NCBI GenBank assembly: GCA_002224055.1
Contig: AZLU01000259.1
Coordinates: 1-55,783, forward strand
DNA from: Pezizomycotina sp. ARF18
Taxonomy: Eukaryota > Ascomycota
Reading direction: 5' to 3'
Length of the DNA: 55,783 bases
Program-made: the position numbers and the translations under genes
Notes under the pieces: generated by a model
Told to the model about the DNA's origin: nothing
Seen by the model: only the letters and a program-made list of their open reading frames with translations
The model's database searches: none
Part shown: positions 3,134 to 35,588 of the stretch, piece after piece
How the letters are laid out: each line of letters opens with the position of its first letter
Position numbering within the stretch: the stretch's first letter is position 1

Positions 3134-4110
3134 CCCCGATTGATTGATTGATTGATGATTAATTTCTCTATCTGGACCTATCAGGGGAACCCTTGGCAAA
3201 CTGTAAAACAGCCGATAGATGGTCAAAGATGTAATAAGGACCGCACGCGTCCCCAACCATCAGCAATACCAAAATATACAGCCTAAATGTCCAATACTCT
3301 CCCCTCCATCATCATGGTACTATTTTTATTTTTGAGTCCGAGCGGGAATAAATAATCGGTCTAATACAGCACAGTCCGTGTCGGCCGCGCGGATCCTTCC
3401 TGAATCCTTCGTTCGCAGAGGTTGTTTGCGATTGATGTGTTGTCTTTGCATGAAAAACAACAATATGTATGCCGAAAAATGTCTTCAGAATGAATCCATG
3501 CAGAAGAAATACGTTTCGGCCTATACCAATGACCAATGAACCCTTTCGAACGACCGATTGACGGTTACCCCGCACTAGTTGGAAATACCAGTCTTGTGTG
3601 TAAACATCTATTCTGTCTAGGTGAAGATAAAAAAATGATGATTTCGTGGACATTGGGAGAAAGCGCAAAATTATCCTGTATAAATAAGGGGCTGATACCT
3701 CCAAATATATACTACTGCCTATGAATGAGAAAAGTTCTCAATATACAGCCTGTAACGTTGGTTTAAAAACACTCGCTCTCAGTATACTCACATTCAAGAA
3801 CATATTATTTCCACTTCCTCTATCGGTTTTTTTGTTAAGACGATAGCATATATAGTTACTTAAAAGATACTTAAGATATCTATACTTATTTTATTCTACT
3901 TAACATTAATTCTACTAGAGATACCCTACCCACAGCCAGGTACGTGTTTTAAAGTATTCCATATTTCTATCTACATATGATATCCTTATAGGAATTTAAG
4001 TATTATATATAAATAAATAGCTTTTTTCCCTTCTATATTTTCTTATATTAATCTTTCCCGAAAGCGGAACCAAGTAAGAATACCTCCGACACAATTATGC
4101 CAGGCAAAGG
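2923..4110. other. Intergenic with T33 tract and short tetranucleotide repeat
   Basis: There is no supported gene. The stretch holds a 33-nt T homopolymer (3101-3133), directly followed by a GATT tetranucleotide run (about 3138-3156), and an AT-rich block near 3840-4040. Overlapping open frames at 3312-3724 lie on opposite strands and show no protein-like features. Confidence 0.55.
3101..3156. repeat. T33 homopolymer plus (GATT)n microsatellite
   Basis: Thirty-three consecutive T, a CCCC spacer, then about four GATT units. It is a simple repeat with no coding function. Confidence 0.9.
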
Positions 4111-4260
4111 AAGCACGACCACCACTGCCCTAAGAGGAGCAAGGGGAATTGTAGGAAAGGGAAGACACCGTTCAACAAACCGTACTGCACCAAGCACCAG
4201 ACGTATTGTACCACGCACGAATGGACGTACCTCCAGGACGAGAAGTGCCCGAAGTGCTGA
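4111..4260 (+). CDS. Short Cys/His-rich ORF, possible zinc-binding fragment
   Basis: Forty-nine codons ending in TGA, rich in Cys and His, with a pattern reminiscent of short fungal zinc-ribbon-like peptides: CPK near the start, then CTKHQTYCTTHEW and a terminal EKCPKC. The spacing C-x3-H-x2-YC-x2-H and then CxxC is hard to get from random DNA, but I cannot name a family. No clear ATG begins this frame; it may be the second exon of a small gene, since a candidate acceptor CAG lies just upstream near 4103. After the stop, another frame reads KMRRDEFITHAHHRIEAFF, which could be its continuation after a missing base. A longer open frame on the opposite strand is Val/Leu-rich and looks like a shadow. 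Confidence 0.3.
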   Translation, partial: KHDHHCPKRSKGNCRKGKTPFNKPYCTKHQTYCTTHEWTYLQDEKCPKC

Positions 4261-6363: not shown

Positions 6364-7526
6364 ATGGGACAGCCGGTGCTGAGCGATGAAGCGCTCCTGG
6401 TTAGTATCACAGCCCAAAACCCCCAAAGCTACCTTGACTTCGACTAACCGAAACGGATCAGATCACCCACTGGGTCCTCACCATCGTCGGTCTAATACTT
6501 CTCTGCGCGCGGCTATACGTCCGCGTCTACCTCCGATTCTGGGAATGGCACTGGGCCGATATCCTCGGCGTACTAGGCTTCATATTCGCATGCGCATGGA
6601 CGGCAGGCGAAACGGGTCTTTACGTCCTGAGCCCGCATTCAACGCCTCCGGCCGGCTTAACACAGGAACAGCATCTAAGTTGGCTGTATAATCATGAAGA
6701 GTTCGTTATTTTCTCCGCATCACTTCCTCCCGTATTTCCTCTTCGTCTTACTTACTGAGAATTCTCCCATCCCAGAGCGTCCTCATGGCCACCAAGGTCG
6801 ACTTCTTCGCGTATCTCATCGGTATATGGCTTATAAATATTCGATGCTGTGTTTATACTCCGAAATGATTACGAAGGACGCGTACTACCGTTTGTGGATC
6901 GCGCTGAATATGATATGGTGGTTGACGACGCTATTTTGCATTTTGTTCCTCGCGGAAGTGATATTCTGGTGTCCCAACGTGGCCGACGAGTATACGTTCC
7001 AAATCGATCTGAAAAGCGAACAAGCGGTGTATAAATGCTCCGCAGCCGTTAACGATTCGGGCTTTTACAAAGCCCTGAGCGGATCCCAGCTGAGCATCGA
7101 TTTCATCATTTGGGTGTACCCTGCGCTCATAGTGTACTACCTACACCTAAGTAGAAGACAGAAATTCGGCGTCGCCTTATTATTCTTCCTAGGGTTTTGT
7201 TCCTGGGCGTGGGGTGCGCGAGCGTAGCGCTGTACGAATACGAAAGCTTCGACAACAGCTGGAGTAAATTCGGCCTGAGCTGGACGCAGTTCCTCGCCGT
7301 CGTTATCAGCAACGGCATCGCGTGCAAGAGGTTCACGGGGGATCGTCATCCCCGGTATACGGAATATGTGGCAGAGCTCTTCGGCAAAGAAGTGCTAACT
7401 CAAGCTGCAGCGACGGCAGCAGCGCAAGATGAGGAAGAGGAGAGGGCGAGTTTCGAGGCAAGGAGACCTTCAACGATATCAGGGAGAAGTCTAGCATTTT
7501 TGGAACGAGAGCTTCGACGGATGTAG
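6364..7526 (+). CDS. SAT4/rhodopsin-type (PTH11-like) seven-helix membrane protein, frame-broken
   Basis: A fungal integral membrane protein of the rhodopsin-domain (SAT4, DUF3433/PTH11-like) group; members are plasma-membrane proteins, a few with receptor-like roles. Start ATG at 6364 (MGQPVLSDEALL). The helices run THWVLTIVGLILLCARLYV, HWADILGVLGFIFACAWTA, VDFFAYLIGIWLI, KYSMLCLYSEM, LNMIWWLTTLFCILFLAEV, then the family-typical stretch IDFIIWVYPALIVYYLHLSR followed by RRQKFGVALLFFLG, and a last helix around SWTQFLAVVISNGIACKRF. The C-terminus is cytosolic and Ala/Glu/Arg-rich. Four frame changes (near 6440, about 6720-6800, 6832 and 7195) are each consistent with one missing base; the second could instead hide a short intron. 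The order and spacing of helices and the PRRQK-like loop make the family call firm. Confidence 0.8.
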
Positions 7527-10500
7527 GACGGAGGAAAGTAGGAGGTATAGCACGTGGGCTCCGAAGTATGCGCCACTTCTGCCTGATATTTAGACTTGGC
7601 TTAAATGGATTTTCCCATTGGGGGTTTGATTTTGTAGCTATTAAAGAAGCTGAGCTATCTAGCTTTCAATCATCTAGATCCTTTTTAGTGTAATGTATCG
7701 GTACATGGGGTACAAAGAGATGTAATTCAGAAGTATTTAAATGTTCCTCTGGGCATAGTAGAAGGCCTATCAGATGTCAACGATGTCTTTCGGGTCGCAC
7801 AAGGCCAAGAGCACTAAACCGCTTGGTTTCTAGCGTTGTTAAAAGATCATTCGGGGGTGCCGCCGCCAGCTCCGCACCAAGCAATGCAACGCAAACGTTT
7901 TTTTTCCTAAGCGATACGCAAGCAGGTCTTACGAACGTCTTCGGCTGATCGTCGTCATTTGGATAATGTTTCGTCGTTTATTTTATTTTTAGAAAATATT
8001 AGTTCAGTAGGTAGAGATATATATAAAGCCTATCCTTTCGCTAAATAAGCAGTCATCTAGAACTTTTGTAAAGTTGTCGTAATTCACATCTATATCTCGT
8101 GGGAAGGCATTCCGGAAGGCCGAAGAACGTGATCTCGTCAGATCTCTGGGCGTTTCACATGCGATCTTGATATCGTGGCTTTACAGCGAATCGTCGAAAG
8201 AACATAGTGTGCCTTGCATTTTCGCCCTGCGCCACGATCGTGAAGTGTTAGTTTTCACGTGCGACATTAGCGTTTGACGAAGGTAGTACGCAGAGCTTTG
8301 CAAAGTTTGTTTCTTTGTTTGCATGTAGTGGTTTTTAGTAGAGCCAAGTCACCCAGAAGCAAAAAACCTGGGAATACGATATCTGATTAGATGCCATAAT
8401 TTTCCTCGGCCCATCGTCGTTCTTGGTATTTCGCCGAGCGGAACGAAACGAGAAAACTTATTATACGAACATGTTTCAAACTCAACTTTTGATCGTTCCT
8501 GTTAGGCAGTTGACATGCGCAAAGAGAACGCCGATAAGCAGGTCCATCCCAGAAGTCTTCGAAGCTAGCTGTTCAAAGGAACTTAATATGTTATTTATTG
8601 AGAAACGAATCGTGACGGAGAATTAGAACCTTTGTTTGGGTTCAGCGACTTCCACATGTAGAAGAGCAAACGTTTGAGTCTCTAGAACTCACGATGAAGC
8701 AACCGAGGGCTTTCAAAGGGCCGTGGCCACGTTGCTTACGTATTCTCAGGGAAGAAGCAGATCCTACGACAAGCATTCAAAACCCTTCAGAATCAAGGTT
8801 CTAAGATCCAAGCTTCGGAGATCGTCAATTTCCATCCGGTTCCTGATGAAACGTGTCGAGGACGGAATGGAGAGGTTTTCTCCTCCACACGCATAGAGAT
8901 ATCATTCCGCAGGTCGTGATAGTCCAGATTAAACAGGAAGTTTAGCTTTCGCACGAACTTCCATTCCTTGAAAAGAAAGTAGCCATCTAGACAAAATTCC
9001 GGGATAGTGGTGGAGAAACAAAAAAAATCCCATGTCTTTGGGAACGAGGCCGTATCGAAGACGTTTCGAGTACGGCCAATTTCCCATTAAGCTTTTTCAA
9101 AAACAAGGAAACGGTGCTTGAGGTTGCTCTAGACCCTCCGCGACACTAGAAACGTTACCGATGGCAAACCGGGACATGAGCTGCCAATCTAGGCAAATCT
9201 AGCAAGCCGAGATCCCGTATTCTAGCAGTCCACGCTCCTAAACAATCGAAGAAACCACGAGGAATGGTCAGTAATGCCAATTTAGGAGTAAATACCTGAC
9301 ATGACAGACCGGAATCTTGGAATCTCAACCCAAAGAGAAATCTAAAAGGCAGACAGGATAGCGACGGCAAGTCTGTTCGTCGACGAGGGCCGCTAAGGCT
9401 CGCAGGGGTGATAACTTGGCCGGAGAATCGATCATCCTAAAATAATCCTTGGTAGAGAAAAACGAGACATTAATTCTGAATGACTGCGGGGAACTTTTAT
9501 CTCTTGTAAGATAAGCAGTGGAGGGAAGAATCTTAAGGTATTATAGCGAAAACACTAGACGAGGTTCAGGGACTTCAAGAAAGCAGGGGTAAAGGTTTAT
9601 AAATATCCTCGAGGCATATAGCATGATCCCTGAACTGGAGAAACCAACAGGAAAAAATTTTTTTTTCTCCGCCACTTTATTATCTGCTAGCCTCGCTAGC
9701 TATAGACTCACTCGAGATAGCTTGTCAACTTGCTGGGTGTTGTCATAACCATGTCATGGCCATGGAACAGCTCTGCGGTAAGACCGATCAACACCTAGCT
9801 ATCGGTATCTGGGTCGGTTTTGCAGGCGAAAAATTGCTTGAATCAGCTTCCTATTTCTTGCATGATATGATAATTTCTCAGCCCTGAGTTCGGGATTATT
9901 TCGACTAGGGGATATTCGTAAGTCTAGCCGCAGACAAGGCCTCGGCCGTGTGAGCTAAAATATAGCTATTTTGACGCATCTTCATCACTCTTCAACCTAA
10001 AATAGGAAGCTTCGAAACAGCGTCGAAGCGAGATAAGATGCGCTAGACATGATGCCTGTATGTGCTGCACGAGAACGGTCAATTAGCCTATGTGCTGTCG
10101 CTGATAGAAGCAGAGAAAAAAAAATCCAGTATTGTATGATAGATCCTCGAGAAACGAGCTTCTCAAGAGATATTAGAATAGAGGAACGCGAAAAATTAAT
10201 TTCCGCGCATGGCTTCAAACCTTGATAAAGGGAGATACCAGGAGCCCCCGGAGCTAGAAGCACGCACAGCACCATCCTCGAGGGAGAAGATAAGGATATC
10301 TGCTGGTAAAAGCGAGGACGGAACCCTGAAGTGTCGATTATTCCAGGAAGTTTAGCGTACGTAGCTTTGAGATCCAGGTTTGCCTGCTAGAAATGTCCCC
10401 ATATCGTGAACAGTGGTGATTGTCCTCGGATGGAATGGTTTCGACAATTGAGATTAGTGAGCTGGTGAAGTCATAGGAAAGCGAGTTTGATTGTGTACCC

Positions 10501-16528: not shown

Positions 16529-17349
16529 ATGAAGACCTTCGCTACCGTCGCTACCGCCGCCATCCTCTTCTCCGACGCTCTCGCCTCGCCTTGGTACGGT
16601 AAGGACTACGGGAAGCCGGTGACCGTCACTGAGACTTGCACCGAATGGAAGACCAAGACGGAGACCTGCACTGAGTGGAAGACCAAGACTGAGACCTGCA
16701 CCGAGACCAAGTGGAAGTCGTACACCACGACCGAGACCAAGTACGTCCCGACCTACTACACTCGCACTGCGACCGAGACCTGCACGGTCACCTCCAAGGT
16801 CCCGTACCCCGTCCCTACGACCAAGACCGAAACTTGCACGGTCACCTCGAAGGTTCCTTACCCGGTCACCAAGACCGAGACCTGCACGGTCACTTCCAAG
16901 GTCCTTACCCAACCACTTTGACCCAGACCAAGACGGAGACTTGCACTGTTACCTCGAAGGTTCCTTACCCGGTCACCAAGACCGAAACCTGCACGGTCAC
17001 CTCGAAGGTTCCTTACCCGGTCACCAAGACCGAGACCTGCACGGTCACTTCCAAGGTCCCTTACCCAACCACTTTGACTCAGACCAAGACGGAGACTTGC
17101 ACTGTTACCTCGAAGGTTCCTTACCCCACGACCAAGACCGAGACCTGCACCGTCACTGCTCCAGGACGCGTTACCACCGAGACTTGCACTGTCACCTCCA
17201 AGGTCCCCGTCCCTACCACCAAGACGGAGACCTGCACCGTCACCGCCCCGCCCGTCTACAAGACCACCACCTGCACCGAGTGGAAGACTACCACCCAGAC
17301 CACTTGCCCTTACGGCGGATACGGAAAGAGCTACCGCTTCCGCGCTTAA
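16529..17349 (+). CDS. Secreted Thr/Cys tandem-repeat protein (probable cell-wall or surface protein)
   Basis: Begins with a clear signal peptide, MKTFATVATAAILFSDALAS, followed by PWYGKDYGKPV. The rest is built of about thirteen degenerate repeats starting TETCT. Early units read TETCTEWKTK; the middle ones read TETCTVTSKVPYP with linkers VTK, TTK or TTLTQTK; the last is TTTCTEWKTTTQTTCPYGG. Each unit brings one Cys, many Thr and alternating charge, which suggests a disulfide-linked or O-mannosylated extracellular fibre. No GPI signal is visible; the protein ends GKSYRFRA. The frame breaks once near 16903: a GGTCCTTACC where the duplicated copy near 17056 has GGTCCCTTACC, so one C is missing. 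Healed, it is about 273 residues. Codon choice is strongly C-ending, unlike the surroundings, which suggests high expression. No named family is recognised. Confidence 0.85.
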
Positions 17350-19772
17350 GCTACTTAATTCTAATATTCATTTCGAAAAGATATGGTTTTAACAATCCTG
17401 CAGCGGTTGTGAAGAATTAATATTCAATTCGGCTTGTTTTGTTCTGAATTATTAGCTTTTGTCTTTTCATTCCCTTGTTACGAAAAAGTTCTTAATAGCA
17501 GCTACTGAAAAAAGGATGGGAGGAGCATAAATTTTGGAGGTTGTCATCCCAGCTTCGAGCAATTTTTTCTGCTTGCTTTAACGATTTTGATATCACGAAT
17601 ATTTTCGCGTTTGCATATTTTCATTTTAGCTTTGTTCCGTTTTTCCTTTCTCAAAAAATAACGACACGCATACGACAGCATCGGCATAAAAGGGAAGTAT
17701 TTCTTTTTTCTGCATTACACTCCTTGGGATATAGATACGACAAAAACACTCCTTACATTTTAATACTTCATAATCACTATCCTTAATCACTTCTACGATA
17801 CTTCTTTGTAAATAGCTTTTCACTTTTCGCTTCTTGGTTGCTTGTTTTAATCAGCATTGTTGGTGTTTTTCGGTTTTTGTTTATCGAGCATTATACCTTC
17901 TATAGACGCTCCTTCATCAAAACCACGATCCTTATATAGTGCGCATACTTGCGCGAAAAACACTCCTTATTTCGTAATATAAATACTTTTTATACTAATT
18001 AATCTTTCTAAAGCTCTCTAAGCCATTCTGAAATTGTGATTTAATGGGAATTTTAGTATGTAATTGCAATCATAACGATCCATGGCAGCAGTATACAATA
18101 CCAAATAACTTTGCCTTCATAACTTATAATTATTCTGAGGCTTTGCTATATGAATGGTGTTTTAATTTTCTATGCTCTCCTCTCTATCAGCTTACAGCGT
18201 TGCATTGCTGTTTGAAATATAGCTCACCCCTTCGCTAAGGATGAAGCATTTTAAACATGTCGGGTTTTAACAATTGAAACGGATACTACCCTCAATCTCC
18301 TATCAAAAAAAAATTTTTTTTCGCGATCTTCGGATATGCCGTTCACCAATTCTTATGCGAGCATGCTTTCAAACGAAACGAAACGGATATTGTTCCGTTA
18401 GCTAAAGATAATATATGCGTATTATTTTTTAGGTTATCAAGCTTTCTTTGGGGTAATTGATTGACTTTCTTTACATATACGGGGTAGAATTTTCTCAACT
18501 CTGGATAAAGAAGGAATATCAGAGATCTCGAAATTCATGCATGAATACAAATTCCCAAAGGAAAAGAGAAAATTATAAAAAGGTTCCGACGACAGTTACT
18601 CACTACGAGTCTCAGATCCTTGGACGGAATATTCCTTTCTTTTTTGACGTCGGATTTAATTCATCAACATGACATGTATATGTACCGGTGAACCGTCTAT
18701 CTTCCGTTTGGTTTTTTATTTTTAAAAAATGGAAGGAGGTCTTCGGGGGAAATAATACTACTTCTAGACTTGCTACGATCGATTATAAGGCAAGACTTGA
18801 CTTGTATCAGTCGGACACGTCCGATATATAATTATAATTATAATAGTTCTTGACACTCTGTTTAACGCATAATGACTCGCCATCACGGAAGGAAGGAGTA
18901 TATGTTATATACCGAAACTCCCCTGTTCGGAATTCTTTTTGTTCGCTTGGAAGATTTTTTTTTTACTTCTCGGGAACCGAGTCCCCTCCGCGCCCGTGAA
19001 ACGATGAGCTCCACTTCCAAGATACGGAGAGATAACTTTTCTATATATTTATTTTTATTTTTCAATATATTTAATACAAACACGGATATGATAATGACTT
19101 TTTCTTTATCCGAGTCGAGAAGGAGCAATAACTCCTATCTCGAAAAAAAAAAAATTGTGATCCCTATCGTCTAACAGACCCCGACGTCTCGGTTCTTATT
19201 CTTCCATGCCTCGGTCGAGGGCTCAAAAAAAAAAAAAAAAAAAAGCCCTTCGTTGTATCGGCATAAAAAATACATAAAAACCCTCAAACGTTTTTTGATA
19301 TTTCTCTTTTTTTTTTTTTTTTTTTTTTTTCGCTTGTATTTTCCATAATCGAGCCTCCTTGCCGAAGATCGCTTGGCCCGGGATAAGCTTCTTAGCTTCT
19401 TCGAAAGAACTACTTTAAAACAATGAAGAAGAAATAGATGGAAGCTCCCGGTAGAATGCTAAAAAACTGACGTCGTATCGTACGCTTCGAAACGGTCATG
19501 TCATTTCGTCAACTGATAAACTGATCCTTACGTCGCTGAGCGTATCTCAAAAACCTTGAAATCCTTTTGTCCAAGTTTTTATTTTGGGTCAATCAAATTT
19601 CCGCGTGGCCCCGTCGATATCGACAACGTGCTCGAGGCTCTGGATTGAGGCGAGTGCGTTCTTTTGTGCCACTTCTTCGGCAAGCGTCTTCCGAACTCAT
19701 GGGATCCTGCGCTAAAAAAAGATATCGAGACAACGATAGAAGCCCTAATGTGTGCGGATCCTTTTGCAGAGC

Positions 19773-22843: not shown

Positions 22844-23782
22844 ATGTCGTCCGCTAGCGCATCCTCTCTTTCAATATTGTCGGAAGCGGGCTTCTCCCGC
22901 CTGTCAGATACCGTCTTTCTCCTTGACCCTTCTTCGACATCTCCGACAACTTCCGCTGTAACAACTGCTACTGACGTCTCGGCATCCGCTACGTTCGAGA
23001 AAGTGTCGAATCCAAACCATCCCGCTACCGTCCTATATTCTCCTGGATGGGCGCCGCGCCGCGCCACATCATCAAGTACTCAGCCTCCACCGGCAGCTCT
23101 TTCCATCCGCAAAGATCCTACTTATTCGTACGGATCCGGAGGACTTCTTCAAAAAGAAAGGAGAACTACAAGAGGGTCTCAAACCCGCCGCCGAATTTCT
23201 ACACACCGCATCAACATCCGACTCCGAGCGTGGTAGTGCATTCATCCACACCTTCTCCAACGGCGGTTGCTACGGCCTCTCCCAGCTGCGCGACGTCTAC
23301 CGTGCATCCTTCCCTTCCTCCCACCTCCCGTATAAGTCAATAGTAATAGACTCCGCGCCTGGTGCGGGCACCTTCTTCAGCGACTTCTTCGGTGCCATTC
23401 GTGCGTTCTCCGCTGGGCTTCCTAAGGGTCCCTTCGTGAGGCGGCCTATGCAGTTCCTGCTGTCGATATACGTGTTGTTGTACTACTTCTCCAACTTTAT
23501 ACTGAGGAGGGAGACGGCTATCGCGTGGGCGCGACGGAGGATGAACGACGTTGATTTTTGAAGCAGGCGGAGAGAAGGACGTATGTGTATAGTAAGAAGG
23601 ATGAGGTTATACGGTGGAACGAGGTCGAGAAGCATGCTGATGAGGCGGTTGAGATTGCGACGAGGGAAGGAGCAGGGACGAAGGTCGAGAAGGTAATTTT
23701 CGAAGCTAGTGACCATGTAGGGCACTACAGAAAGCATCCGGTAGAGTACGTTGAGGCCGTGAAAAGATGCGTTGGTATATGA
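22844..23782 (+). CDS. DUF829 (TMEM53/PaxU-like) alpha/beta-hydrolase, frame-broken
   Basis: Member of the DUF829 family, which includes mammalian TMEM53 and fungal PaxU-like proteins; the reaction is not firmly known. The ATG at 22844 gives MSSASASSLSILSEAGFSRL. Then follow a central strand and turn ATVLYSP-WMGAAPRHIIKY, typical of the family; ILLIRTDPEDFFKKK; the nucleophile-elbow-like FIHTFSNGGCYGL (Ser in SNGG) near residue 145; IVIDSAPGAGTFFSDFF; and, near the C-terminus, TYVYSKKDEVIRW with the charge-relay Asp and ASDHVGHYRKHP with the His. Breaks near 23045, 23111 and 23560 each heal with one added base, the last by lengthening a T run (GATTTTTGAAG). The stop is at 23780-23782. PaxU occurs in indole-diterpene clusters, but no other cluster gene is here, so a secondary-metabolite role is not supported. 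Confidence 0.85.
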
Positions 23783-29229: not shown

Positions 29230-32200
29230 GTCACCCAATTTCCACTCGGGCGCGAGTGGTAAAAAAACTTCACTAGTTTGAATGAAATAAACTGAATGAA
29301 CGCTCTTGAGGGATAGGAGCAGGTTTAAGCGTTGGTGAGGTAATTCGTGATAATTGATCTGGGGTTTGAATTTGTGCCATACCATACTAAGGAACAAAAA
29401 TAAGACCAACTCTGGACCCCTCAAAACATATAGCTACAGTGCAGCGTGCATATGGTTGAATGCGCGTACCTATGGAGGTTCCAAGTATATTCGTCTCTTC
29501 TTGTAGGGCTATACTTAAATCCGCTCTGAAACTTAAGTTATCAGGCCTCGTGGCCGACGTTAACGAACTGTGACCCGACGGGTTCATGACGTGAATAGGA
29601 TGCCCCAAGCTACGCAATCGGAATATATTAACCTCAATTCCAATATTAGGAAGCAGCATGACTTTACATAATAACATTGGAATGTTATGGTGTTGACTTT
29701 TAATCCACCTCAAGTACAGTATCGTGATACGCTAAGCACCGAACTAATTCTCAAGGAAATCTGGATTACCCTCACAATAGATCACCTCAACCTAGAACAC
29801 AGGAAGTCAAAGACTGTACAATTCGAATCAGCGTCTCAAGGGGCTTTCAATGAATGTTCAATTCTCTCGTACCATTGGTGTTAGATCCCTCCTCAAGCTA
29901 GGTTGATGCTTTTTCAAAACCGTTGATTGACGCATTTAACGGACAAGACCTCTTTACTTGAGTAGCACCTTAAGAGCAGCCCCAATCTATGCACCAATAA
30001 AAAAGAATAGCATTTTTCCAAGCAGCTGATCGATAGCTTTTGAGGTATATAAGATTTTATTCTGGTTTGAATTTATGATCCTCCCTAACTTAGAGGAAAA
30101 TGTTTCCAATCGGATGCTGTAGTATTGACGAAGATAATCTATTCAAGCTTGTACGGGTTATCCCAACCCATACTCCAATGAAAAAGAATGATATCACTCA
30201 AAGCCAGGATTCAAGGCCTTTTGAAAGGTGTATTCTAGACGTTCCCGCAGTAGGTCTTGATCTACCGTTAGCGCTGCCTATCGGGAGATTCATAAGAAAC
30301 TCGGCAAACAAATCGAGTAGCATTTGATCATACACCCTCGATACCTCAACCCCATTACCGCAGGAGAAAAACAATAATAGATAAACCAGCGTACACGGCG
30401 CTTTTTAGCGGTACTATTTTCTTGCGTTGGTGATGAGGCTTGATCTACCGCTGACGCTGATATTGAACGTTATTGTTGTTGCTCGGCAGACTCGGCTCTG
30501 AAAATTCAAAACTTCTGAAATACGGGTTTCCCTATCCACGCAACGAAGCTAAAAGCTCAATAACATTTAAACGGCCTATTGTAGTTTTATCTATTTAGAC
30601 GTTTTTTACTCTAGTAACAGTACTTAAAGCCACCCGAAATTTCGTCATTTCGAATTTTAAGACCTGACGCCGTCAACGAAATTTAATTTTTGAACACTGC
30701 ATTTGAGTTACTCTTAAGTCCCCTCACCAACGTAAACTATTGATGAAATTCGACACCCCTGGGTTTAGTGTTTTGAGCTATGTAGCTAGTTTGCTGTGGT
30801 GAAGAGTTTTGATCTGCCGCATTGAGCTGGTGAACGGCTTTTCTCAGAACTCGGTATGATCGGTGCAAAATGTCACCACCTTCAAATATGACTCTTCCCA
30901 ACTCCCTTCTACTGGGATAAGCAATATGCTGCTCAGTGCGCTTTAGCAAGGAGAATGGAAGACTTGTTTCTTGAGCTTCAGCGTTGGCTTTAATCCATCC
31001 AATATTTCAAGATTTCGAGTTTAAAAATCGCGAACTAATATGAACGAGGAGAATTCACAAGGAACAGTACCAAGTTGTCCCAACCTATCTCTTAGAGCGC
31101 TGGAGAAACAAAACTCGACGTAGCTCGATGAGGCGATTAAGACTACGTAGCTTTTTCCCCGTTACACTCAGTTTTAATCCACTCGTAATCCTAGTGTTTC
31201 ATTTCAAGTTCGTCAATTTACTGTGCGAGATCAGATCTATAATTCCATAACAGAAGGCATCCCATAGTACTTTCTCGGGTAAAAGAGCTTATAGGCTCTG
31301 AAGTTGCATAGCTAGGCGAGAAGAATATGCGGTTTTTATTCTCTAATGCTAATATTCGATCCACGTTAAGAAGTAGCTGCAGTGTTTCAAGATTTGTCCA
31401 CACCGAAAACATCAGGAAATGATAAGGTGATGGATTATCTGCATCCCAACCTACCTCTCTAGAAGAAAGCAAATAGACTACTTGAAGCAGCCATATAAGG
31501 GGAATAGAATTTTATAGTTCTTATATTACAGAGCTGGGTATAGGTCCACTCCAAATACTCGATTTTCAAGTTGAGAATTTGCCAATAAATACAAAAAAGT
31601 TTCAACAGCAGCTGATGGGTTATTGGCACCCCAACCTACCTCTTTGGAAGACATGGACATGTTATCTAAAACAGGGCTATGTGGAGAATAGAAATTTATA
31701 GTTTTATATCTCAGAATGGGGTATAGATCCAGCCCAAATACTCTATCTCACTTGAGAAATTGTCAGTAGTTCACAACCAGCTTTCAATAAGAGCTGGTGG
31801 GTCACTGTCATCTCAACCTAACTCTTCTTGTGATGGGGAGCACGCCACTGAATGCAGTCTGATAAGGGGAATTGAATGATGTAGCTCTAATACTACGGAG
31901 GTAAATTTAGATCCACTTGAAATCGCGTGTTTTAGGTTTTAAAAATCGTCGACGGCGATGAGAATATCAAAGAGAAGTTGAAGAATATAGCATCCGAAAG
32001 TAGCTCCCCAGAAGACTAGAACGATAATTTTCAGAGCAGGGCTAGTGAGGGTTTGGGGAAATATACTTTTAGCTAGTCATGGGGGACTTGATCTACTTCC
32101 AAATAGCCATTTTCAAATTTACTAGATCGCGGACATTGGTTGACGAAGTTCGCTTCTACAGTCAAGGAACAAGGGTCTCAATTCACCTCTGTAAAGCTTA

Positions 32201-34080
32201 AAAAGCATACCATTGATAACAGCTAGCCCTAATACATTGCCTAGTATTTAATTTTAATTGATACTTCGTAGTGTTAGTCTCCTTCAAACTTGTCATGTGC
32301 CAGGATTCAAGTTCGTCCATCGGAAGTAGGACCTCGGCCTGAGACCTTGAAAAACGAAGCAGGCAAACCCACATCTACCGAAGCCAACCTCTACACGATT
32401 CAATCCAGGACCATTCCCGAGTAGGATTCTGTTGTTTTCATTTCACTGTATTCACATGTAATCCATCTTATATTTCCTAGGCCAGTCTTTTAAAAACGTG
32501 GTTTAATAGAACATTAAGAATCTTACAACCTCGAGTACATGATAGCCCAACTATACCCCTCCAGCATAAGAAACCAATTTTCCAATCCGGCTCACTGGCC
32601 CGATTTCGGTTTTATGGCTCTTTTCCCGTGGGTTTGAGATACAATCCTCTTCAAATCAAGAGGTTTGAAATCCAAACTGGTCAGTGAGAAGCGTGACCTT
32701 GATTTGTATCACTTCCTAAAAATGATGCTTAACCCCATCTACAGAGCATGAAAAGATTAAATTCCTACCCAAGTCGGAGCCCTGATTGAGATTCTGCGAT
32801 GTTTAGATCGTGATTATGGTTTATGATCCACGCTAAACTCATAATAATCGTGAAACTGTTGAAACAACTTGGCGCGAATAATCCCCAAACATGTTAACTC
32901 AACCCCGTATTAAAAGACATAAACTTATACCATTCGATCCAGCTCTGAGAGCTACGTACGATTTTGTGAATGGTATTTACTGGTATTAGTTACCCCTCCA
33001 CCGCAAATCCTTATCTGCTCGTTTAAGGGTAAAAGAGATTTGTTATTGGAAGTAATTTGAAGTCCTGGGTGAGATTATACTGCTTTTAGTGTATGACTAA
33101 GGTAGTTGGTCCACCATCAGCTCCCGTCTTCTCAAATTGAAAATCGTACATTGGCGAACAATCTCGTCCTGAGATCTCAGGAAAAGTGGCTGCCCAGCCA
33201 ACGAATGGAAAACGCAATAGCTACATAACCCAATCCAGCTAGTTGCTCTGAGCTAGAATTTATGAATTTTATCGCGTGATGTCTATATTTCATCCACCTC
33301 GAACCACCTGGTCGTCCAATTTAAACCTTTCCCATAAACCGAAACATAAAACTACAATCTGAAGAAATGGAGTAGCTCAACATATAACCGCAAGGGATGA
33401 GCTTCGTATCATTCAATTCAGATTGCAAAGCTGGATAAGATTTTGTGGACCTTTTTCTGTGGTTTGGGTACTTAATCTACACCAGAGTGCTTGTGTATGG
33501 TTTTGGACTCGTCAACGACGGAGACTATCTGAATTTGCGATTATACAAATATGAGGAAACCCATTACACCTCCCCAGAACACGAGATGCGTGCCATTTGA
33601 ACCGCCTCCATATTGGGAACAACATTATAGGATTTTTACGTTGTGCTTTTGATTTTGAATCCACCGTGAAGTCTTAATCTTAGTTTTTGAACTCGTTCGC
33701 GGTTTCGTCCCTGGATATGTGTTCTCTAGTGGGTTGAGATAGCCCAACATACCTCTACCGAGCCCAAAACGCGTACTAATTAAATCAGCACTCTAGTGAG
33801 AGTCGGAATCCGATCTTTTTTTTCTTTCAGCTCTGACTTTCGATCCACAGTAATGCTATAGTCATCGTTTTCCAGACTCGGTAGGTATGGGAATCTAACC
33901 CAAAAATGAACAGCGAGAAACATGGTGTCCTAACATATCCCCCTTTCCGGAACAACCAGGCCATTTTAAAAGTCACGAGCAGGTCGTCTAATGCTCTGAG
34001 GGTACTAAATGCATCCAATTCATAGATTACATGGATAAAGGTGAAGAAGAAATTTCCAATGTTGCTTTTGATTTTTGTTA
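29230..34080 (+). repeat. Diverged tandem satellite array, period about 183 bp, some 26 units
   Basis: Two anchor blocks recur in fixed order. Block A resembles CCCAACCTACCTCT; block B, 95-99 bp later, resembles GATCCACYTCAAAT and is followed by a run like ATTTTCAAATTTGAAA then GTCAACGG. Block B occurs near 29518, 29702, 29884, 30077, 30259, 30442, 30627, 30811, 30992, 31176, 31358, 31543, 31726, 31910, 32090, 32276, 32460, 32643, 32825, 33109, 33291, 33474, 33658 and 33842. Spacings are 180-193, mostly 182-185, with one 284-bp step that contains a partial extra unit. Block A is clear at 29981, 30162, 30345, 30897, 31079, 31445, 31630, 31812, 32546, 33743 and 33929. Units differ by many substitutions and small indels and no frame stays open, so this is not a coding repeat. 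The array stops abruptly near 34076 inside a unit, about 150 bp past the end of the reductase gene. Confidence 0.82.
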
Positions 34081-34229: not shown

Positions 34230-35588
34230 TTACGCAACCCTCCTAATCTCCCTCGGCCTATTATAAATAGGATAAGCATCCGGCGTATTATCCAAAATAC
34301 CCTCAATCTCCTCCATAACCTCCTTCGTCAGCTTCGGCAGAACCTCCAGCGCCTTGACATTAGCACGGACCTGCTCCGGCTTCGTCGCACCCAGAATTAC
34401 CGTGCTAACATTCTCATTCTTCACGCACCACGCCAGCGCTAAAGTCGCCATCGTAGTATCCAGCTTCTTCGCGATGTCGGTGAGCTTCCTGATCTTCTCG
34501 ATCTTGGCTTTACCCTCCGGCGATTCTAGCTCCTTGATGGTATCGGAGAACATCGCCTTGTTTGTTTGCAGGCGGGAGTTCTCGGGGATGCCGTCGTTGT
34601 ATTTACCAGTCAGGATACCACCGGCGAGCGGTGACCAGATTGTCGTGCCGTAGCCGAATTGCTTGAAGAGGGGAGGTATTCGACCTCGAAGCGTCGCGGT
34701 GGAGCATGTTGTACTGCGGTTGGTCTGCGATCGGTGCGATCCTATAAAGTAAAAAATCTACTGTCAGTATGAAAGAAACCTATAAAACGATGTCAACTGG
34801 ACACCTTACAAGTTGTACTTCTCCGCAATAAGCGTAGCCTCCGTAATCTGCGCCGCGCTCACTCCGACGTTCCCCAGTAGTACGCTAGATTGAGATCGCG
34901 GATGACCTGCGTGAAACCCTCGACGATCTCCCTCATCGGCGTGGCGTTGTCGTGACGGTGTGCCATGACTATGTCGACGTAGTCCAGCCGCAGCCTCTTC
35001 AAGCTGGCCTTCAGCCCCTCGACGACGTGCTTGCGCGATAGTCCCCGCCCGTTGGGTTCCTTCGAGCCGGTACCAAAGAAGATTTTCGTGGAGATGACGT
35101 ATTCCTCGCGCGGCCAGTCGAGCTCTTTTAGGGCGTTGCCCATTTCGATTTCGATTGGCCGTTGGCGTAGATTTCGGCGGTGTCGAAGTAGTTGATACTA
35201 CATGATTGTAAGAAAGTTTGTTAGCCAGTGTTGTCCACAAGAAGGTTTAGGATCGATTGGAGATTAAGAGGTGCGATTACCCATTTTCCCAAGCCGTCTT
35301 CATGCATTCGACGACGGGGTTACCCTTAACCGTACCGCCGTACGTGAGCCAGCCACCCAAACTGAAGACCGAAACCTTAAGACCAGAGGGCCCCAGGTGG
35401 CGGTAGATCATGTTCCCGGGGTTGAAAGTGTGGCGGGGTGAGAGTTCGGACGACATCTTGCGAGATTGAAAGTAGTTTAAACTCAATGGAAGCCTTCCGG
35501 ATGATGTCAACGTATCCTGCGATAGTCTGAGACGTGAGTGTAGTAGCTGCCGTGTAATTGTGGGAATAAGTTTGTTGTAGCTTGCCAT
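34230..35588 (-). CDS. Aldo-keto reductase, K+ channel beta-subunit-like (AKR6 type), three exons, frame-broken
   Basis: NADPH-dependent aldo-keto reductase of the voltage-gated K+ channel beta-subunit-like group; fungal members reduce aldehydes or ketones in the cytosol. The body begins [19 protein letters not shown]; catalytic residues are seen as [12 protein letters not shown] (Asp, Tyr), [12 protein letters not shown] (Lys) and [11 protein letters not shown] (His). Then come [46 protein letters not shown] and the cofactor-binding [15 protein letters not shown]. Introns with GT..AG ends lie at 35198-35280 and 34742-34809; the stop is at 34230. One base is missing in each of GQS/EIEMG (near 35150), SE/WSAA (near 34856), and two near 34690. 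The open frame begins at ATG 35588 with [20 protein letters not shown], a basic Ser-rich stretch that could be a mitochondrial presequence; MSSELSPRH at 35456 would give the cytosolic form. Confidence 0.9.

Follow-up and report, generated by a model that had tools for sequence, protein, structure and literature searches.

Alpha-satellite and the 180-bp satellites of plants consist of noncoding tandem monomers of about 180 bp that carry short conserved blocks, whereas palindromic or foldback miniature inverted-repeat transposable elements (MITEs) and their tandem multimers are short, dispersed elements of inverted half-units, found both singly and in tandem. Satellite arrays and palindromic mobile elements are already known kinds, and the array described here resembles both. 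It lies in a 55,783-bp stretch of DNA from the ascomycete Pezizomycotina sp. ARF18 (AZLU01000259.1; hereafter the window), which is one whole contig (C259) of a 46.36-Mb genome in 408 contigs. The array, of about 25 units of 183 bp, is one member of an old, dispersed, satellite-like family with tandem arrays at 17 loci.

Like the nucleosome-length satellites, the family is built of noncoding tandem monomers of about 180 bp with short conserved blocks; unlike them, its units are only about 41% identical and little homogenised, occur as 1-25 units at 17 scattered loci, and are wholly palindromic. With foldback MITEs it shares inverted half-units, shortness, dispersal and the coexistence of single and tandem copies, but it differs in its deep divergence and in showing signs of constraint on blocks and spacing. 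A third comparison is with the TFIIIC-bound B-box clusters at the inverted-repeat boundaries of fission yeast, which likewise hold multiple copies of a GGTTCGA-like core; here, however, the 3' CC of the B box reads GG, and no tRNA genes were found in the window or at 14 loci (ARAGORN, bacterial settings). Finally, nematode satellites with conserved CENP-B-box-like motifs (PMC3694981, PMC9673304) have, as here, short conserved motifs within fast-changing monomers, though the motif sequences in our array are apparently different ones and are dyad-symmetric across the unit. Among the literature matches listed from open-licence PubMed Central, none describes a family in a filamentous ascomycete whose nucleosome-length arrays are fully palindromic, deeply diverged and little homogenised.

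A diverged tandem array of dyad-symmetric units

The tandem arrangement is evident without any model. Between 29,230 and 34,080, where a first-pass annotation had placed a tandem array with a 183-bp period, the autocorrelation over lags 20-999 reaches its maximum of 0.324 at lag 183 (mean 0.258; z 7.2) and has harmonics at 367, 550, 734 and 917, and the proposed period is thereby confirmed. Fitting a cyclic profile model brings a gain of 1,024 and 1,045 nats at periods of 183 and 184, against 325-684 nats at periods of 120, 150, 167 and 200. Autocorrelation, profile and dyad detector together delimit an array at 29420..33990 on the forward strand (29,422-33,967 by profile score), so that the interval first given does contain the array, its ends lying about 190 and 110 bp outside it.

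Scanned for paired inverted half-units by the detector, the window yields 25 dyads, all of them in the array. They are centred at 29469, 29653, 29835, 30029, 30211, 30393, 30579, 30762, 30946, 31128, 31310, 31494, 31679, 31861, 32043, 32226, 32412, 32595, 32776, 32947, 33059, 33242, 33425, 33609 and 33792. The median spacing is 183, and 19 of the 24 spacings deviate from it by no more than 2 bp; the remaining five are 186, 186, 194, 171 and 112. The last two belong to a broken stretch near 32,776-33,059, in which part of a unit is missing (dyads only 112 bp apart at 32947..33059) and on both sides of which the array continues. The two conserved blocks recognised in the first pass, A (CCCAAC.TACCTC) and B (TTTGATCCACC), start at profile column 0 and at columns 96-101 respectively, and the distance reported between them was right.

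Across 25 profile-aligned rows the units have a mean pairwise identity of 41.5% (range 0.29-0.71), which bears out the earlier description of a strongly diverged, nucleosome-length, satellite-like array. Next neighbours are 0.437 identical and units at least six apart 0.400. As in satellites, the repetition is head-to-tail, tandem and noncoding; the array is little homogenised, however, and lacks the concerted evolution of a satellite. Tandem Repeats Finder (TRF), run on the window, does not report the array, because its units are only about 41% identical, and the tandem-repeat finding that the first-pass annotation had suggested as a check thus comes back empty.

The best-scoring complete unit (31445..31629, forward strand) has block A as CCCAACCTACCTCT at its left end, block B as GGTCCACT from 31543 and a central palindrome region at about 31474-31516, and is 71% identical to the unit that follows it (31630-31811). 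It illustrates the internal structure: a left half-unit at 31445..31493 (forward strand) points to the dyad at 31494, and a right half-unit at 31495..31553 (reverse strand) is inverted relative to it, with a reverse-strand model match at 31444-31530 scoring 18.4 bits.

This symmetry is a property of the unit as a whole. The consensus is mirror-symmetric under reverse complementation, column j pairing with column 100-j, and the unit therefore consists of two inverted half-units of about 92 bp, the arrangement typical of foldback MITEs. Computed from the printed scores, the z value for dyad symmetry is 5.9 in the window, 6.9 with two further arrays and 7.7 with eight; three separately trained sets share one dyad centre (z 5.9, 5.9 and 7.4), and reverse-strand model matches show the symmetry as well. 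It extends, though more weakly, to the outermost parts of the unit and takes in spacer columns of weak conservation. Blocks A and B are the outer parts of the two half-units and mirror counterparts of one another - by eye, the consensus of the array on contig C333 reads at the B position as the reverse complement of A - and the middle of the unit is a palindrome near ATACCATTCGAACCgCCTCG/CGAGgCGGTTCGAATGGTAT. The central palindrome also gives overlapping matches on both strands, 6 bases apart, in the arrays on C138, C144, C149, C157, C97, C31 and C267. Both the dyad symmetry and the mirror relation of A and B, as well as the genome-wide family, had escaped the first-pass annotation.

A palindromic unit could indicate an array of RNA genes, each unit encoding a hairpin RNA as a source of double-stranded or small RNA. 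The A-to-B segment does fold with lower energy than mononucleotide shuffles (p 2e-6) and, on one strand, slightly lower than arm-swapped chimeras (p 0.03); within-unit pairing that allows G-U reaches z 2.0 over columns 0-49. However, the reverse strand does not differ from the chimeras (p 0.27), nor does the central palindrome (p 0.41 and 0.70), the remaining pairing tests give z -0.7 to 1.8, and Rfam matches in the array region and at six other loci all fall below gathering scores. In the window alone, pairing is 0.331 within units against 0.333 between units, and over 89 units of eight arrays within-unit Watson-Crick pairing in columns 0-49 has z 1.5. As pairing within units is hardly better than between them, the symmetry is mainly a property of the DNA-level consensus; no convincing RNA covariation or compensatory changes within units were found, and we regard RNA genes as improbable. 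A coding origin was likewise considered and rejected: unit lengths are not multiples of three, and the array is without long frames, the longest from stop to stop being 104 amino acids.

The array has also not become A/T-saturated, as the first pass had remarked. Its GC content is 0.411 and its composite index for repeat-induced point mutation (RIP) is -0.21, against -0.14 for the whole window; TpA/ApT is 0.90 and the second index, (CpA+TpG)/(ApC+GpT), is 1.11. The composite is negative in all eight arrays, and transversions make up 48-54% of unit differences. The arrays do not have the features of RIP-damaged repeats and, since the indices are near those of the surroundings and transversions account for about half of the differences, RIP is not the cause of unit divergence. 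Matches to C5 cytosine methyltransferases occur on three contigs (loci L037, L039 and L041, on C51, C13 and C16); the one at L041 may be a RID/Masc1-type enzyme, RID being the enzyme of RIP.

A dispersed family of arrays

Searching the assembly for the monomer, another check suggested in the first pass, gives different answers by different means. With the Basic Local Alignment Search Tool (BLAST), the window array and the C333 array each match only themselves in their own genome, whereas the half-unit detector recovers 16 further loci. As neither TRF on the window nor BLAST with two arrays finds anything beyond the query, such arrays would be missed in ordinary annotation.

The loci were reached through short patterns. 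Block A, allowing up to two mismatches, occurs at 322 places in the genome and its reversed control at 457, so that it shows no enrichment; the other three of the four patterns show a small excess over control (middle block, 111 against 54; half-palindrome, 198 against 142; B block, 19 against 12); a 23-base consensus pattern has no match, and neither has its control. The matches cluster, however: the 215 merged places listed group into 20 clusters (within 600 bp), where uniform placement would lead one to expect 0.56 and none of 500 simulations of it gave more than three. Three of the clusters lie in the window array and two in C267, leaving at least 17 loci - a lower bound, taken from the matches listed and from patterns derived from the first arrays.

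We examined the 16 loci besides the window, all picked for pattern matches. Each holds 1-18 dyads, giving 127 over 17 loci with the window included, at a median spacing of 184 (interquartile 182-187); eight control stretches (72,846 bases, five of the eight also with a pattern match) hold none. Profiles were trained on eight arrays, and nine loci outside this training (C138, C149, C157, C71, C97, C42, C156, C61 and C10) account for 30 of the 127 dyads. A single unit was detected at each of two loci (L025, L034). Some pattern matches are without any unit: those at L015-L019 and, by the first profile, those at L001, L005, L006 and L008. Low-stringency BLAST between array loci returned in-array repeats, short chance-like matches and one gene duplication, and no common flank; the central palindromes of C138, C149 and C157 match each other over 41-53 bp.

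Held-out scoring ties the window array to the others. Under a profile with its own seed, trained on six other arrays, the window array scores +551 nats and its reverse complement +163, against an average of -285 and a best of -264 nats for eight shuffles; C333 scores +232 nats under the same profile. Conversely, a profile from the window alone gives positive scores to all seven other arrays on the forward strand and to six of the seven on the reverse strand, and negative scores to all shuffles. It might be objected that the family is chance or an artefact of profile fitting, since expectation-maximisation gains likelihood on any sequence, as the 325-684 nats obtained at wrong periods illustrate. 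This is refuted by the model-free autocorrelation, the clean held-out scoring and the loci outside training, and we give it practically no weight.

The dispersal also bears on the suggestion, made in the first pass, that the array marks a centromere or pericentromere. A nucleosome-length monomer in tandem, without long open reading frames in the window array, is what such a satellite would look like. However, the family occupies 17 dispersed loci with 1-25 units, down to a single one; a recognisable gene frame lies within about 0.2-1 kb of units at four of them (the window, L011, L030 and L033); and GC content and RIP indices are normal. The suggestion is thus not supported for this array, and a centromeric or pericentromeric role is very improbable.

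Further traces may exist on the contig of the C3 array. Isolated pattern matches at 417102 and 419404 of C3, 2.3 kb apart, are perhaps another array. Separately, locus L013 has two stretches (3594-4242 and 7501-8155, at about 287.6 and 291.5 kb of C3) that align over 681 bases at 66% identity and represent a diverged duplication within a few kb of the C3 array.

Constraint and neutral decay

What could have produced such a family, and what keeps its units recognisable? Our preferred reading, to which we give a probability of roughly 0.45, is that the arrays descend from one palindromic element and have been kept as regularly spaced, two-fold symmetric sites for a protein whose existence we infer. 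The ancestral unit would have been a palindrome of about 184 bp, whose two half-units, each of about 92 bp and inverted relative to one another, met at a dyad of the approximate sequence ATACCATTCGAACCgCCTCG-n-CGAGgCGGTTCGAATGGTAT. Some 50 bp from the dyad on each side would have lain an outer block, CCCAACcTACCTC to the left and TTTGATCCACCTCAAA to the right. This element would have multiplied in tandem and then spread. A DNA-binding protein complex may bind, or once have bound, each unit as a site with two-fold symmetry, and the rigid spacing may set up a regular nucleoprotein array that acts as a chromatin-organising element.

The main rival, and a real possibility, is that the family is a neutral relic: an old palindromic foldback (MITE-like) element or inverted-dimer satellite that multiplied in tandem, dispersed and then decayed, its conserved blocks being slow-mutating parts and its spacing a remnant of tandem duplication under a low indel rate. 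The symmetry of the full unit, spacer columns included, points to a palindromic ancestor; loci with a single unit exist, and neighbouring units are slightly more alike than distant ones. The outer blocks, moreover, share a left/right asymmetry that by eye is common to most arrays and therefore indicates their common descent. At one single-unit locus nothing resembling target-site duplications or fixed termini is evident by eye, no systematic search having been made; against such a relic, no transposase was found among the frames scanned, and the divergence, with its share of transversions, is not RIP's doing.

Two lines of evidence, both from comparisons of units and arrays within one genome, bear on the choice between constraint and decay. 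First, columns differ in how fast they change. In the three closest independent unit pairs, the top-quartile columns, as scored on other arrays, have an identity of 0.752 and the remaining columns one of 0.614, and none of 175 shifted controls shows as large an effect; the corresponding values are 0.690 and 0.512 for 14 pairs and 0.655 and 0.478 for 24. Column conservation in the window array correlates with that in six others (rho 0.557, rank 1 of 184 shifts). This slower change at particular columns, parallel to that in other arrays, supports constraint.

Second, the spacing is tight. At 0.78 substitutions per site per lineage, our estimate from mean identity, simulated neutral indels leave spacing as tight as observed in 274 of 500 runs at 0.005 indels per substitution, in 26 at 0.01, in one at 0.02 and in none at 0.05 or 0.1; at 0.3 substitutions per site the counts over 0.005-0.1 are 491, 385, 98, 0 and 0. 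With indel rates being assumed values, this supports, and does not prove, that the spacing is more regular than expected under neutral indels, provided that these are not rarer than about 1% of substitutions. Neutral decay accordingly accommodates the spacing if indels are at or below about 0.005 per substitution, and does so poorly at higher rates. The first-pass idea of a dead minisatellite is disfavoured by the column-specific constraint and the spacing, though it retains some probability.

Several observations weigh against maintained protein sites. The symmetry over the whole length of the unit and the left/right asymmetry shared between arrays are no less well explained by neutral decay. 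With 0.005 indels per substitution, selection is not required for the spacing, and unit length varies between arrays (medians 183 to 192) but is shared within each, as would be expected of descent no less than of constraint. Matches in conserved columns may themselves be favoured by the profile alignment. Column conservation in C333, the second large array, is weakly correlated with that of the window (rho 0.118, rank 17 of 184) and of the rest (0.176, rank 5), and the mirror correlation of conservation, rank 1 in two sets, is rank 12 in C333 when unsmoothed; smoothed, it ranks only 9, 9 and 5 in the three sets. A profile from C333 alone puts six of the seven other arrays below zero, yet all seven above their eight shuffles; from these weak scores C333 would appear to be a more divergent branch. 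The A/T-only (WW) dinucleotides of the arrays show no peak near 10 bp, which speaks against direct rotational positioning of nucleosomes. Finally, the frames neighbouring arrays share no family, among 40 frames compared with Pfam. Because neutral decay differs from it only in the tests of constraint, we hold the protein-site reading with restrained confidence.

If the constraint holds, the family would offer a rare opportunity to tell selection on spacing and symmetry apart from homogenisation, and its unit could serve as a concrete DNA bait with which to seek the protein that reads it. A more specific proposal, which we think unlikely, is that of a satellite maintained without copying: selection would act on a two-fold symmetric motif set and on the nucleosome-scale spacing alone, leaving everything else free to drift. 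The fungus may have a genome defence that mutates repeats resembling each other, so that an array would last only if its units look unlike. If true, the genome would carry repeat-proof chromatin platforms at a density of at least one site per 2.7 Mb.

Neighbouring genes and further features

To the right of the window array, an aldo/keto reductase frame (PF00248) lies at 34,233-34,757 on the minus strand, and no stop-to-stop frame of at least 150 amino acids occurs between 23,558 and 34,233. At other loci, a thioesterase frame (PF03061, L033) and a DUF6604 frame (L030) are found within about 1 kb of units, and an amine-oxidase-like frame adjoins the C333 array (L011; E 7.7e-4, just under Pfam's cut-off); an S28 peptidase frame is also present on C333. 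In all, six of the 40 frames scanned from the window and neighbouring loci match a Pfam family, the sub-cut-off match being counted among them, and none is a transposase.

Elsewhere in the window, a fungal rhodopsin-domain frame (PF20684, 6679-7224) and a DUF829 frame (22962-23558) are in keeping with a filamentous ascomycete. A long frame at 16623-17417, without a Pfam match, has degenerate internal repeats (TRF periods 24, 30, 48, 107 and 156) and looks like a repetitive protein. On contig C189, 5.8S rRNA copies at 18969 and 29836, 10.9 kb apart, indicate several rDNA units on one contig.

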